From contig NZ_AUAR01000008.1 in assembly GCF_000428825.1 (NCBI RefSeq), forward strand, positions 120,430-184,429: a DNA stretch of 64,000 nt, written 5' to 3'. Below, piece by piece: positions 14,850 through 63,350 of the stretch (the stretch's first letter is position 1; every line of letters begins with the position of its first letter). The position numbers and the translations under genes are program-made. The notes beneath the pieces were generated by a model, which ran no database searches, was not told the DNA's origin, and saw nothing but the letters and a program-made list of their open reading frames with translations. Source of the stretch: Desulfomicrobium escambiense DSM 10707. Its GTDB lineage: Bacteria; Desulfobacterota; Desulfovibrionia; Desulfovibrionales; Desulfomicrobiaceae.

Positions 14850-16382
14850 TCAGGCAGGGACGAGCAGGCTCTCGCCTGTCATCTGGGCGGGCTTGGGGAT
14901 GCCCATGATGTGCAGGATGGTCGGGGCCACGTCGGCCAGCCTCCCGTCCCGAACACGGAAGCTTCCCGGCCCCACGTAGACGAAGGGCACGGGGTTGAGG
15001 CTGTGGGAAGTCTTGACGTTGCCCTGCTCGTCCAGCATGTCCTCGGCGTTGCCGTGGTCCGCCGTGACCAGGAGGGTCCCTCCGGCCTTGGCCACGGTCT
15101 CAATGACCCGGCCCAAACACGTGTCCACGGCCTCCACGGCCTTGACCGCCGCCGGAATGACCCCGGTGTGGCCGACCATGTCCAGGTTGGCGAAGTTGCA
15201 GACCACCAGGTCGTACTTCGCGGCCTCCAGGGCGGCCACCAGGGTGTCCGTAACCTTGTATACGCTCATCTCGGGCTTGAAGTCGTAGGTCGGCACGTCC
15301 TTGGGCGAAGGCAGCAGTTCGCGGTCCTCGCCGGGGAAGGGCGTTTCCTGACCGCCGTTGAAGAAGTACGTCACATGGGCGTATTTTTCGGTCTCGGCCG
15401 TGCGCAGCTGGGTCAGCCCCCGCTCGGACACCACCTCGCCCAGGATGCGGTCAAGGGTCATGGGCGGAAAGAGCGCGGGCAGATCGAAATTCTTGTCGTA
15501 GCGGGTCATGGTCGCGAAGCCCGACAGGGCCGGCTTGCGCGGCCGGTCGAACCCGGTGAAGGCCTCCTCGGTCAGGGCCCGGGTCAGCTCGCGGGCGCGA
15601 TCGGCCCGGAAGTTGAAGAACAGCACCGCGTCGCCGTCCTGCACCAGGCCCGAGGGACGTCCGTCCCGCAGCACCACGCGCGGCTTGACGAACTCGTCGT
15701 TCTCGCCGCTTTCATAGGCGTCGCGCACGGCCTGGGCCGCGCTTTCCGCCGTCAGCTCACGCCCTTCGGTCAGGGCCGCGTAGGCCTGCTCGACCCGGTC
15801 CCAGCGCTGGTCGCGGTCCATGGCGTAGTAGCGGCCCGAGACGGAGACGATGCGGCCCGCACCCAGGCGCGCCAGATCGCGCTCCAGTTCCTCGACGTAG
15901 CCCAGCCCGCTGCGCGGGGGCGTGTCGCGGCCGTCCAGGAAGGCGTGCACGCAGAGGTCCGCCACGCCGTGCCCCTTCAGGGCCGAGACGAGGGCCACCA
16001 GATGGCTCTGCATGCTGTGCACGCCGCCGTCGGAGACCAGGCCCATGAGGTGCACGCGCCCCGAACCGGCCGCCGCGGCCCGGGCCAGGTTCACGAGCAC
16101 GGGGTTGACGGCCAGGGAGCCGTCCTCAATGGCCAGGTTGATGCGCATGATGTCCTGATAGACGATGCGCCCGGCCCCTAGGTTCAGGTGCCCGACCTCG
16201 GAGTTGCCCATCTGGCCGTCGGGCAGGCCCACGTCGCGCCCCATGCACTTCAGTTGCCCGCCGGGGTGTCCGGCCAGGAGGCGGTCCATGTTCGGGGTCC
16301 GCGCCAGGCTCACGGCGTTGCCCGGTCCGGGCGCGGCCTTGCCCCAGCCGTCGAGGATCAGGAGCACGCAGGGCTTCTTCAT
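14850..16382 (-). CDS. gpmI: 2,3-bisphosphoglycerate-independent phosphoglycerate mutase
   Basis: 510 residues, standard for the Mn-dependent enzyme that interconverts 3- and 2-phosphoglycerate in glycolysis and gluconeogenesis. Motifs: LILDGWGKA at the N terminus (metal ligand Asp), the phospho-serine loop QMGNSEVGHLNLGAGR, FLDGRDTPPRSG, FNFRADRARELT, NFANLDMVGHTG and TADHGNAEDM. Two ATG codons are adjacent (16385 and 16382); 16382 overlaps the rsfS stop as ATGA and has a GGAG 7 nt upstream. It is co-transcribed with rsfS. Confidence 0.94.
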   Translation of the reverse strand: MKKPCVLLILDGWGKAAPGPGNAVSLARTPNMDRLLAGHPGGQLKCMGRDVGLPDGQMGNSEVGHLNLGAGRIVYQDIMRINLAIEDGSLAVNPVLVNLARAAAAGSGRVHLMGLVSDGGVHSMQSHLVALVSALKGHGVADLCVHAFLDGRDTPPRSGLGYVEELERDLARLGAGRIVSVSGRYYAMDRDQRWDRVEQAYAALTEGRELTAESAAQAVRDAYESGENDEFVKPRVVLRDGRPSGLVQDGDAVLFFNFRADRARELTRALTEEAFTGFDRPRKPALSGFATMTRYDKNFDLPALFPPMTLDRILGEVVSERGLTQLRTAETEKYAHVTYFFNGGQETPFPGEDRELLPSPKDVPTYDFKPEMSVYKVTDTLVAALEAAKYDLVVCNFANLDMVGHTGVIPAAVKAVEAVDTCLGRVIETVAKAGGTLLVTADHGNAEDMLDEQGNVKTSHSLNPVPFVYVGPGSFRVRDGRLADVAPTILHIMGIPKPAQMTGESLLVPA

Positions 16383-16741
16383 CATTTTTCTCCGGCCAGG
16401 ACAGCCTCGGGCAGTTCGAAGTCCGCGGCCTTGGAGTAGAGTCCTTCGACGTTATAGAGAGAGCGCGTCTCGTCCTGGAAAATATGCACGATGACGTCGT
16501 TGCAGTCGACCAGGACCCATTGTCCGGCCTGAAGGCCCTCGACGCCGAAAAATTCCCACTTCTTCTCCCCGAGGCGCTGCATGATTTCGTCAGCAAGGGC
16601 CTGGGCGTGTCTGGCCGAGCGGGCCGTGACGAAAACCATGGCCTCGGTCAGGGGTGAGATGCCGCGCACGTCCAGGGCCCTGATGGCCGTGCCCTTCTTG
16701 TCCGCGAGCCAGGTCGCGATCTGACCTATCTTATCTTCCAT
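16382..16741 (-). CDS. rsfS: Ribosomal silencing factor RsfS (Iojap family)
   Basis: 119 residues from ATG 16741 (MEDKIGQIATWL); an in-frame ATG at 16753 is also possible. The protein shows the Oligomerisation/Iojap domain: ALDVRGISPLTEAMVFVTARS, then GLQAGQWVLVDCNDVIVHIF and the ending after LYNVEGLYSKA. RsfS binds L14 on the 50S subunit and blocks subunit joining during starvation. It is directly upstream of gpmI with overlapping stop and start codons, an arrangement also seen in other bacteria. Confidence 0.9.
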   Translation of the reverse strand: MEDKIGQIATWLADKKGTAIRALDVRGISPLTEAMVFVTARSARHAQALADEIMQRLGEKKWEFFGVEGLQAGQWVLVDCNDVIVHIFQDETRSLYNVEGLYSKAADFELPEAVLAGEK

Positions 16742-16864
16742 ATTGCGTATCATTCTCCGTTCGTTGTGATGTAAGGCTCAAAGGCGCATTGTCTACGCCA
16801 AAACCCGCCACAGGGCAATGAGTCAAACCTTGACGAACATTGCCGGCCAAGGCATAGGACAGCC

Positions 16865-16936
16865 ATGCAATCTATTGTCGATTCACCGCGTTTCCCGATA
16901 TTTACCGGCCCCTTCTGGAAAGGGGCCACGGTGTAG
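16865..16936 (+). CDS. Putative regulatory leader peptide of paaK
   Basis: A 24-codon frame with ATG at 16865 and TAG at 16934-16936, preceded by AGGA about 6 nt upstream. Its second half reads [12 protein letters not shown], with three Phe and one Trp codon; the last Phe and the Trp (16913-16918) fall inside the first hairpin of the downstream attenuator. The size, aromatic codons and position match ribosome-stalling leader peptides such as those of the phe and trp operons. No protein function is expected. Confidence 0.6.
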
Positions 16937-17002
16937 CGCGCAGCGCGCAGACGATTTCAGCCGCCGTGAACAGCCCCATGTTCGCGGCTTTTTCATTTTT
17001 TT
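16907..17002 (+). promoter_or_regulatory. Putative transcription attenuator upstream of paaK
   Basis: Three mutually exclusive pairings are visible. The 1:2 stem is ggcccctt (16907-16914) with aaggggcc (16920-16927). The terminator (3:4) is 16959-16964 with 16984-16989 and 16968-16972 with 16979-16983, a 3-nt bulge, 6-nt loop, and a long T-rich run after it. An antiterminator (2:3) is CACGGTG (16927-16933) with CGCCGTG (16962-16968), which uses the left arm of the terminator. The leader stop codon at 16934 lies right after segment 2, as in the classic mechanism. Confidence 0.62.
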
Positions 17003-17019: not shown

Positions 17020-18321
17020 ATGCTGTTCGACGTGTCCAACGAAACAATGCCGCGGGAAGACCTGGAAGCCCTGCAGCTGCGCCGGCTCAAGTCCCTGGTC
17101 GAGAAGGTCTACTACAACGTGCCCTTCTACCAGAACAGGTTCAACGAGATGAACCTGCGTCCCGAGCAGATCCGTTCCCTGAGCGATCTCAAGTATCTGC
17201 CCTTCACCGAGAAGCAGGACCTCCGCAACAACTACCCCTTCGGCCTCTTCGCCGTGCCCCGCGACAACGTCGTGCGCGTGCACGCCTCCTCGGGCACCAC
17301 GGGCAAGGCCACGGTGGTGGGCTACACCCAGCGCGACGTGAACACCTGGGCCGAGCTCATGGCCCGCTCGCTCATGTGCGCCGGGGCCAGCCGCCGCGAT
17401 ATCGTGCACAACGCCTACGGCTACGGCCTCTTCACCGGCGGGCTTGGCATGCACTACGGCGTGGAGCGCCTGGGCGCGACCATCCTGCCCATCTCCGGCG
17501 GCGGCACGCGGCGCCAGGTCATGCTCATGCGCGACTTCGGCTCGACCATCCTCTGCAGCACGCCGTCCTACGCCCTCTTCCTGTACGAATCCATCATCGC
17601 CGCGGGCATGAGCATCGACGACCTGAAACTTCACACGGGCATCTTCGGGGCCGAGCCCTGGAGCGAGAATATGCGCTCGGAGATCGAATCCAAGCTGCGC
17701 ATCAAGGCCCTGGACATCTACGGCCTGTCGGAGATCATGGGACCCGGCGTGGGCATGGAGTGCTGCGACGCCCAGGACGGCCTGCACATCTGGGAGGACC
17801 ATTTCCTCATCGAGATCATCGACCCCGAGACGGGCGAGCAGCTGCCCCTGGGCGAGACGGGCGAACTGGTCATCACCACCCTGACCAAGGAGGCCCAGCC
17901 GCTGATCCGCTACCGCACACGCGACATCACGCGCATCGACGCCATCCCCTGCCGCTGCGGCCGCACCCACCGGCGCATCACCCGCATCCAGGGCCGCAGC
18001 GACGACATGCTCATCATCCGCGGCGTGAACGTGTTCCCGCAACAGATCGAGACCATCCTGCTCGAAACGCAGGGCGTGGCCCCGCACTACCAGCTCATCC
18101 TGACCCGCGAGGGCAGCCTCGACATGCTCGAGGTCAAGGTCGAGGTGGACGAAAAGATGTTCTCGGACGAGATCAAGCATTTACAGCGTATCGAAGCCAA
18201 GATACAAAAGAATATCAAGGAATTTCTCGGCGTCACCGCCAAGGTGACCCTCTCGGAACCGCGGAGCATCGAGCGTTCCGAGGGCAAGGCCAAGCGCATC
18301 ATCGACCTGCGCAACGCGTAA
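17020..18321 (+). CDS. paaK: Phenylacetate-CoA ligase family protein
   Basis: 433 residues from ATG 17020 with GGAGG 9 nt upstream; the frame extends 18 codons further but into the terminator. It is an AMP-forming acyl-CoA ligase of the PaaK type: P-loop-like [51 protein letters not shown] and the YRTRDIT hinge region. The family activates phenylacetate and other aryl acids; in anaerobes such genes sit with indolepyruvate ferredoxin oxidoreductase and work on aryl-pyruvate-derived acids. The following ACT-domain gene and the aromatic leader peptide upstream both point to aromatic amino acid metabolism. Exact substrate unknown. Confidence 0.88.
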
Positions 18322-18375: not shown

Positions 18376-18807
18376 ATGAAAGTTGAACAGATTTCCGTGT
18401 TTCTGGAAAACAGGGCCGGCCGGCTGGCCGAAGTGACCAAGACCCTGGCCGAGAACCAGATCAATATCCGCGCCCTGTCCCTGGCCGACACGTCCGACTT
18501 CGGCATCCTGCGCCTCATCGTCACGGACAACGAGAAGGCCAAGGAGGCCCTGAAGGCCAAAGGCTTCACCGTGGGCCGCACCAACGTCGTGGCCGCGGAG
18601 GTCGGCGACAAGCCCGGCGGGCTGCACGCCATCCTGGAGATGCTCAACGCCGGCGGCGTCAACGTCGAGTACATGTACGCCTTCGTCACCCAGAGCGGCC
18701 GCAACGCCATCCTCATCTTCCGCTTCGACCGCACGGACCAGGCCATCGAGGTGCTGCAGAAGAACAACGTGCGCGTCCTTTCGGGCGAGGAACTCTACTC
18801 GCTCTAG
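18376..18807 (+). CDS. Tandem ACT-domain regulatory protein
   Basis: 143 residues made of two ACT folds (about 3-65 and 70-140): [22 protein letters not shown] opens the first, and [26 protein letters not shown] the second. ACT domains bind amino acids and regulate enzymes. Stand-alone tandem ACT proteins are typically found beside paaK-like and ior genes, and this one lies 54 nt behind paaK, in the same operon, with GGGAGG before its ATG. An aromatic amino acid ligand is a reasonable inference from context. Confidence 0.85.
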
Positions 18808-37521: not shown

Positions 37522-37569
37522 TTCGAAACTTTACAACGGCGGCCATACTCCGTACACGTCTTCGCACAC

Positions 37570-37656
37570 AAGCTGGGGGAGCCTTCGGGCTGAGAGGGGA
37601 TACGATCCCGACCCTTTGAACCTGACGCAGTTCATGCTGCCGGAGGGAAGCTGGTT
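37570..37656 (+). promoter_or_regulatory. TPP riboswitch (THI element)
   Basis: The conserved THI-box sequences occur in order: gggggagcc, gggctgagagggga, accctttgaacctgac, ttcatgctgccggagggaag. This is the thiamine pyrophosphate aptamer. It lies about 90 nt upstream of thiS and is followed by an intrinsic terminator, so it should turn off thiS-thiG-thiH-thiF-thiE when TPP is plentiful. Confidence 0.95.
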
Positions 37657-37676
37657 CAGGAATCGTCCACCCATCG

Positions 37677-61716: not shown

Positions 61717-61794
61717 GCCCCCATAGCTCAGGTGGATAGAGCACAGGATTCCTAATCCTGGTTTGCCCATGTTCGAGTCATGGTGGGGGCACCA
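61717..61794 (+). tRNA. tRNA-Arg (anticodon CCT)
   Basis: A full cloverleaf: acceptor gccccca/tgggggc, D-arm gctc...gagc, anticodon stem cagga/tcctg with loop ttcctaa (anticodon CCT at 61751-61753), T-arm ccatg-ttcgagt-catgg, and encoded CCA. It reads AGG codons. The 3' 46 nt are duplicated at 63255-63300, marking the gene as an integration target. Confidence 0.96.
61749..61794 (+). repeat. tRNA 3' end, one side of a 46-bp direct repeat (att-like)
   Basis: Identical at 44 of 46 positions to 63255-63300; differences at 61754 (A, copy G) and 61775 (G, copy A). The intact gene lies on the left, the fragment on the right, the usual outcome of site-specific integration into a tRNA 3' end. Confidence 0.85.
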
Positions 61795-61802
61795 GATCAT
61801 CT

Positions 61803-61846
61803 AAAGATCCGGCTAGTTATACACTAGTCGGATCTTTTTTATTTTT
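61803..61846 (+). terminator. Terminator after tRNA-Arg
   Basis: aaagatccggctagt pairs with actagtcggatcttt (one G-U) around tatac, then a long T-run. It is AT-richer than the terminator behind the duplicated copy. Confidence 0.85.
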
Positions 61847-63254: not shown

Positions 63255-63300
63255 TTCCTGATCCTGGTTTGCCCATGTTCAAGTCATGGTGGGGGCACCA
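63255..63300 (+). repeat. Duplicated 3' end of tRNA-Arg (second att-like site)
   Basis: 46 bp from the anticodon loop to CCA, 44 identical to 61749-61794. It lacks the 5' half of the tRNA, so it is not a gene. It closes a 1.5-kb segment 61795-63254 that has low GC and IS remains but no integrase. Confidence 0.85.
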
Positions 63301-63308
63301 GCCGACTT

Positions 63309-63350
63309 AACGGCTCCGGTTACTTGCGATAGTCACCGGAGCCGTTTTTC
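63309..63350 (+). terminator. Terminator behind the duplicated tRNA end
   Basis: aacggctccggt and accggagccgtt pair perfectly over 12 bp, followed by tttttctttt. Its GC-rich stem suits the host, so it may be the original tRNA-Arg terminator displaced by the insertion. Confidence 0.85.

Follow-up and report, generated by a model that had tools for sequence, protein, structure and literature searches.

Why should a gene for an aryl-CoA ligase of the phenylacetate-CoA ligase group be preceded by a short reading frame with phenylalanine codons and a terminator? The question is raised by a 64-kb stretch of DNA (hereafter the window) within contig C8 of the Desulfomicrobium escambiense genome (G000), where such a frame lies directly upstream of paaK and a gene for a protein with a pair of ACT domains. 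We read the element as a Phe-sensing leader-peptide transcription attenuator in front of paaK-ACT, with a ligase that most likely serves Phe synthesis, and assign this reading a probability of roughly 0.78.

The leader frame occupies 16865–16936 on the plus strand (ATG16865–TAG16936). The initial annotation had described a Phe-Phe-Phe-Trp leader; the 23 codons with three Phe and one Trp are present, but the codons are not contiguous, with Phe at positions 10, 13 and 17 and Trp at 18 spread across nine codons without a run. On the same strand, the fold contains a 1:2 hairpin (16907–16927; arms 16907–16914 and 16920–16927) with F17 and W18 at its apex, an alternative pairing of segment 2 (16927–16933, CACGGTG) with segment 3 (16962–16968, CGCCGTG) over 7 bp including one U.G, and a strong 3:4 terminator (16963–17002; arms 16963–16972 and 16979–16988, 10 bp, dG −17.8) with a T-rich tail at 16989–17002, all three as first annotated. 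The terminator was also recovered by an independent terminator scan, and since the gene upstream of the leader, rsfS (16382–16753, minus strand), is divergent, it does not belong to an upstream plus-strand gene. The frame thus stands before the first gene, behind a predicted promoter (16830–16858, plus strand; TTGACG, 17 nt, CATAGG) that has a poor −10 match and was not called in a sigma-70 scan of the window.

A search of the whole window with Rfam 15 returned only TPP and tRNA matches away from the leader. The best scores in the leader region, 11.1 and 9.8 bits, were at chance level with none at the gathering score, and the leader regions of eight relatives gave no match, so a known Rfam riboswitch, T-box or leader was ruled out. 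The TPP match is a riboswitch at 37565–37665 (67.7 bits). Elsewhere in the window, two near-identical 11-codon Trp-Trp frames (61769–61804 and 63275–63310) precede terminators; the first overlaps the end of a tRNA gene (61717–61791), and the pair may represent a duplicated tRNA end of the kind seen at integration sites.

The consequences of ribosome stalling were modeled with the leading edge of the ribosome footprint at +11 nt. In this model, stalls at codons 12–17 cover segment 1 and free the 2:3 pairing while segment 4 has yet to be made. No 2:3 results from stalls at codons 1–4 and 6–11; one at codon 5 does allow it in the fold. Beyond codon 17 the ribosome covers segment 2, which is therefore not released by stalling at W18. 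Phe13 (16901–16903, plus strand) and Phe17 (16913–16915, plus strand) fall within this stall window and are therefore the predicted control codons. The frame is conserved across 14 aligned Desulfomicrobium rows, two of which (L021 and L022) end at an earlier stop, and F10 is found in 11 rows, F13 in 13 and F17 in 8. When Phe-tRNA is plentiful, the ribosome would reach the stop codon and cover segment 2, allowing 3:4 to form and transcription to end; when it is scarce, a stall at Phe13 or Phe17 would cover segment 1, 2:3 would form, and RNA polymerase would read through into paaK and the ACT gene.

The enteric pheA (pheL) and trp (trpL) attenuators comprise a short control-codon frame, 1:2, 2:3 and 3:4 pairings, and a terminator before the first gene. 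The window shares the control-codon frame, the three pairings and the terminator, but differs in its target, an aryl-CoA ligase and an ACT pair rather than a biosynthetic enzyme, in its fewer control codons, in a leader sequence to which Rfam gives no relationship, and in a start codon predicted to lie at the transcript start. This last prediction, a transcript beginning at or near the leader ATG, draws on the spacing of TTGAC, which lies 35 nt ahead of the ATG in the window, 33–40 nt ahead in 27 of the 28 listed Desulfovibrionales leaders, and at this distance in one of six leaders of other classes. Outside the leader list, TTGAC-N15-20-GGCA occurs in 65/134 upstreams and in 0/134 on the reverse strand. 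The conserved position of TTGAC, some 35 nt ahead of this ATG (window 16830–16865; upstreams L007–L203), suggests leaderless leader mRNAs in Desulfovibrionales. According to PMC7298713, the trpL RNA of Sinorhizobium meliloti begins at its leader ATG; both systems would place the frame at the transcript start, as a prediction in the window, whereas the S. meliloti leader, as described there, senses Trp before trpE(G) and the window leader precedes paaK-ACT.

Taken alone, the window sequence is not significant: a rule of at least three aromatic codons in a frame followed by a terminator is matched 15 times on the two strands of the 64 kb, the paaK leader included, and the 2:3 duplex reaches a z of only −1.3 against shuffles. 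It is also far weaker (−10.8) than 3:4 (−17.8). The case is accordingly carried by comparison. Orthologues of the window paaK were taken at 66% identity or above, the next matches listed being at 56% or below; Desulfomicrobium metagenome-assembled genomes L086–L088 carry PaaK proteins 98 to 100% identical. One upstream set comprised 184 orthologue loci, 168 of them distinct, from a search that matched 158/297 genomes, part of which were read; another came from a phylum-wide search in which 95/395 genomes matched at E ≤ 1e-200 and 70 of the 95 were read. With chance matches included, the loose rule of three aromatics was passed by 54/168 upstreams and a stricter rule of four by 22/70.

An unbiased count was made over 234 distinct upstreams against dinucleotide shuffles, scoring ATG frames that held four or more Phe within twelve codons and were followed by a terminator. 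Such frames occurred in 29/234 upstreams versus 0.7 in shuffles, whereas the same count gave 8 for Gly, 6 for Arg and at most 3 for the remaining residues; the window leader, with three Phe in twelve codons, falls below this cut. A terminator was present in 111/234 upstreams versus 50 in shuffles. Strong leaders were found in Desulfovibrionales, namely f1 (L028, L033), f2 (L027, L032), f6 (L030) and f5 or Desulfovibrionaceae (L195, L196, L109), and beyond them in Desulfacinum (L111, L112) and Desulfobacterales (L123, L126, L134, L138), with further examples across the phylum such as L236, L240, L246 and L257. The leader-bearing lineages span the NCBI classes Desulfovibrionia, Syntrophobacteria and Desulfobacteria, and by these comparisons the window contains a modest representative of an element found across all three. 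Leader lists were compiled by eye (34 rows for the TTGAC count, 36 rows in another, 48 tree labels, and 28 + 18 peptides without near-copies).

On a quick PaaK tree, 48/136 rows carry a leader and 88/136 do not, proportions that are not frequencies because only no-leader rows more than 90% identical to another were removed and all leader rows were retained (198 proteins reduced to 136 rows). The leader label requires 16 changes on this tree versus 39.8 in shuffles, eight of them forced by well-supported branches, a pattern that would fit either a single origin plus losses or repeated gain. An ACT gene was recognized near paaK by a sequence pattern, which may miss divergent copies, at 93/168 loci; 13 loci were too short and 62 had no match, many of these in Desulfovibrio.

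Pairing was then assessed by covariation. In an alignment (A2) of 22 leaders outside Desulfovibrionales (for example L111:2744–2948), with the structure taken from the single row L111, the 2:3 helix comprises 12 bp with 98.5% of cells paired and both-side changes at five pairs (14 cells), against 30 to 47% paired in slid controls. Its covariation score was reached by 0/500 shuffles, which do not keep relatedness; by the same shuffles 3:4 (98.9% paired), 4:5 (95.4%) and 5:6 (92.1%) each gave 0/500. The mutually exclusive antiterminator and terminator thus both covary in these leaders of other classes. Their six segments would form a chain in which 2:3 with 4:5 permits read-through and 3:4 with 5:6 terminates. 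The his operon attenuator likewise has six segments with a chain of alternative pairings; these leaders share its chain, with Phe in place of His codons, whereas the window has a four-segment layout. The six-segment leaders end in the motif FFFRKSxHG or PACGG and are a candidate new RNA family.

Within Desulfomicrobium the terminator is paired in 97.9% of cells over 14 rows, with a covariation that 70/500 shuffles equalled and that is therefore not significant. The first six pairs of 2:3 are 100% paired and nearly invariant, the seventh is G-C or G.U in 14/14, and 1:2 is paired in 88.2% of cells. Because 2:3 is nearly invariant, covariation cannot test it in this genus, and in the window's own lineage support for the structure comes entirely from conservation. 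The covarying 2:3 and 3:4 stems to be looked for in relatives are seen in the 22 leaders outside Desulfovibrionales. Together, recurrence before orthologues and covariation in other classes bear out the trp/phe-type attenuator proposed before paaK-ACT, which by this comparison is real, with an unusual target.

Could the attenuator be real in the family yet decaying in Desulfomicrobium, leaving mostly a constitutive partial terminator, a vestigial leader and little regulation? We regard this as unlikely, although several measurements lean towards it. Leaders of the genus hold 1 to 4 Phe codons versus 10 in Desulfacinum. The 2:3 duplex falls short of z −2 in 12/14 congeners, in shuffles with an arm trimmed by 2 nt relative to the observed duplex, a slight bias towards the observed, and that of the window ranks near the bottom of those measured, above only the doubtful L202. 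Elsewhere 2:3 is stronger than 3:4 in L027, L032 and L018 and somewhat weaker in L028, L030, L033 and L109; this measurement missed L065 and, in L123, L126, L129, L134 and L138, took 4:5 and the second terminator instead of 2:3. Inside the genus, L017 keeps the terminator with no Phe and one Tyr, the very loss of aromatic codons named in the initial annotation as counting against it, and L203, with a single Phe, nearly does so; these cases leave standing the many lineages that keep both. No leader was found in the upstreams of the sister genus g4 (L020, L023, L024). Against decay, F13 persists in 13/14 congeners although flanking codons vary, 2:3 is fully paired in 14/14, and the terminator and its tail are retained. 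A functioning Phe-sensing attenuator remains our preferred reading for the window.

A second aromatic leader in the same genome bears on its purpose. The aro-phe-tyr-trp operon of G000 has its own leader, MTNFSLNHSLYFFWYFYFSRACGLRGLL, followed by a terminator (L208:2504–2590, corresponding to contig C12:16503–16589). The operon comprises genes for 2-amino-3,7-dideoxy-D-threo-hept-6-ulosonate synthase, 3-dehydroquinate synthase II and prephenate dehydratase, together with TyrA-like, TrpE-like (below its cut-off) and TrpG-like genes. A frame rich in Phe, Tyr and Trp with a terminator lies upstream of prephenate dehydratase in 20/20 relatives (L216–L235), this being the one downstream gene by which their operons were identified. 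The two leader types share an aromatic-rich frame, a terminator, mostly TTGAC, and the same order of bacteria; the operon leaders differ in serving the classical pathway and in having both Trp and Tyr in 18/18 peptides counted. Judged by residue content, the paaK leader is the Phe-leaning counterpart of the aromatic-operon leader.

The ligase gene itself (17020–18321, plus strand) was assigned from profiles and its nearest structure. Its product scores 616.8 bits against TIGR02155 (PaaK equivalog), under the curated cut-off of 646.3, and is thus paaK-like with an unproven substrate; PF14535 and PF00501 are above cut-off, the nearest solved chain is the phenylacetate-CoA ligase 2y27, and the PF14535 cut-off is exceeded at five places in the genome. 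The downstream gene (18376–18807, plus strand) encodes an ACT-domain-pair protein (ACT_8) that matches PF19571 at 99.3 bits (gathering cut-off 23.5) over positions 1–139 of 141, covering both domains, with 2f06 as its nearest solved chain. In the Desulfobacterales metagenome-assembled genome L134 (4934–7098), transport genes come after paaK-ACT: one encodes a periplasmic binding protein, another a LivH-like permease. Their products may bring in a substrate.

PaaK would convert phenylacetate to phenylacetyl-CoA, which an indolepyruvate-type ferredoxin oxidoreductase (IOR) would carry to phenylpyruvate and hence to Phe; the ACT pair would probably serve in feedback sensing. A ligase switched on at Phe starvation, together with a sister leader on the aromatic operon, makes PaaK most likely an enzyme of synthesis. 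PMC13285125 states that methanogen IOR is proposed to run backwards when amino acids are made, and that in Bacteroides the presence of an AMP-forming arylacetate-CoA ligase next to IOR suggests the same synthetic role. That ligase, as presented there, would like the window enzyme feed a ferredoxin oxidoreductase, whereas the window gene does not adjoin ior genes and lies under a Phe leader. PMC4162585 cites a second route in Methanococcus maripaludis that has aryl acids as its substrates, and PMC7356843 notes that rumen cultures can make Phe from phenylacetate. The reductive route from phenylacetate through phenylacetyl-CoA and phenylpyruvate to Phe, a direction first suggested in the initial annotation, is thus supported indirectly, short of proof, for these bacteria, and with regulatory logic, sister leader, ACT pair and literature as its basis, a biosynthetic role of paaK-ACT is most likely the best reading.

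Phe could also be sensed while PaaK serves another purpose, such as phenylacetate recapture or breakdown, or provision of phenylacetyl-CoA for something else, a possibility we hold to be about as improbable as decay. The ligase is named for catabolism, and no ior gene lies beside the window paaK. The partner oxidoreductase is divergent in this genus: among eight Desulfomicrobium genomes searched, IorA exceeded the curated cut-off in none; matches of 524 to 532 bits were found in three and of 328 to 339 bits in all eight, the latter being a fused IorA-IorB-like protein in G010. IorA-like proteins far under the IOR cut-off are encoded at L211:3368–5866 (minus strand), where the copy is fused to an IorB-like part (831 aa), and at G000:C2:192782–194527. 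Prephenate dehydratase is present in 26/28 genomes, so the phenylacetate route is not needed for Phe. What speaks against another purpose is that induction by Phe shortage has the wrong sign for the breakdown of Phe or phenylacetate, and that the gene has an ACT partner and a Phe-leaning sister of the aromatic-operon leader. A positional link between the leader and ior genes was rejected: two of four iorA or fused-IorAB loci had no match, and the matches at L206 (one) and L211 (three), with 3–4 aromatics and no Phe run, were judged chance. A leader search at two paaK paralogues found none.

The initial annotation had further named Phe and Trp starvation as the signal. Sensing of aromatic amino acids in general, or of Phe with Trp, is in our judgment very unlikely, even though the 28 paaK leader peptides counted include 17 with Tyr and 8 with Trp, and L030 has several Trp and Tyr codons. 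Phe is present in 28/28 of these peptides, makes up 155/196 of their aromatic residues versus 80/160 in the aromatic-operon leaders, and alone passes the unbiased count. Since TGG at codon 18 is found in the window alone among 14 congeners and a stall there would be ineffective, the predicted signal is Phe, not Trp; Phe-Trp sensing was rejected on that 1/14, leaving the Phe half of the proposed signal standing. A chance frame next to an ordinary terminator, which the 15 loose-rule matches and weak 2:3 z-score of the window might suggest, is scarcely credible and was rejected, given that Phe-dense frames, unlike frames dense in other residues, recur ahead of orthologues (29/234 versus 0.7) and that the mutually exclusive helices show covariation in other classes (0/500 shuffles for 2:3).

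A broader interpretation, to which we give even odds, is that a Phe-tRNA attenuator of ancient origin occurs in three Desulfobacterota classes, having four segments in Desulfovibrionales, where it is read from the first mRNA base, and six in both Desulfobacterales and Syntrophobacteraceae. Its presence would identify paaK-ACT as a second route dedicated to Phe in sulfate reducers: phenylacetate would be scavenged, activated and carboxylated reductively, and once Phe returns the ACT pair would shut the ligase. As for the novelty claimed for leader control of paaK, searches of PMC papers showed no report of such control or of Phe leaders in Desulfovibrionales among the results listed; subscription papers lie mostly outside that scope.

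The codons of a leader peptide reveal which amino acid its gene answers to. Phe codons before an enzyme usually annotated as belonging to phenylacetate catabolism indicate that the ligase is likely for Phe synthesis in these anaerobes, and its annotation in many genomes could be corrected. The comparison also indicates an undescribed leader RNA family with two layouts and no Rfam 15 match. Whether sulfate reducers use arylacetates as building material for aromatic amino acids thereby becomes a directly testable question.
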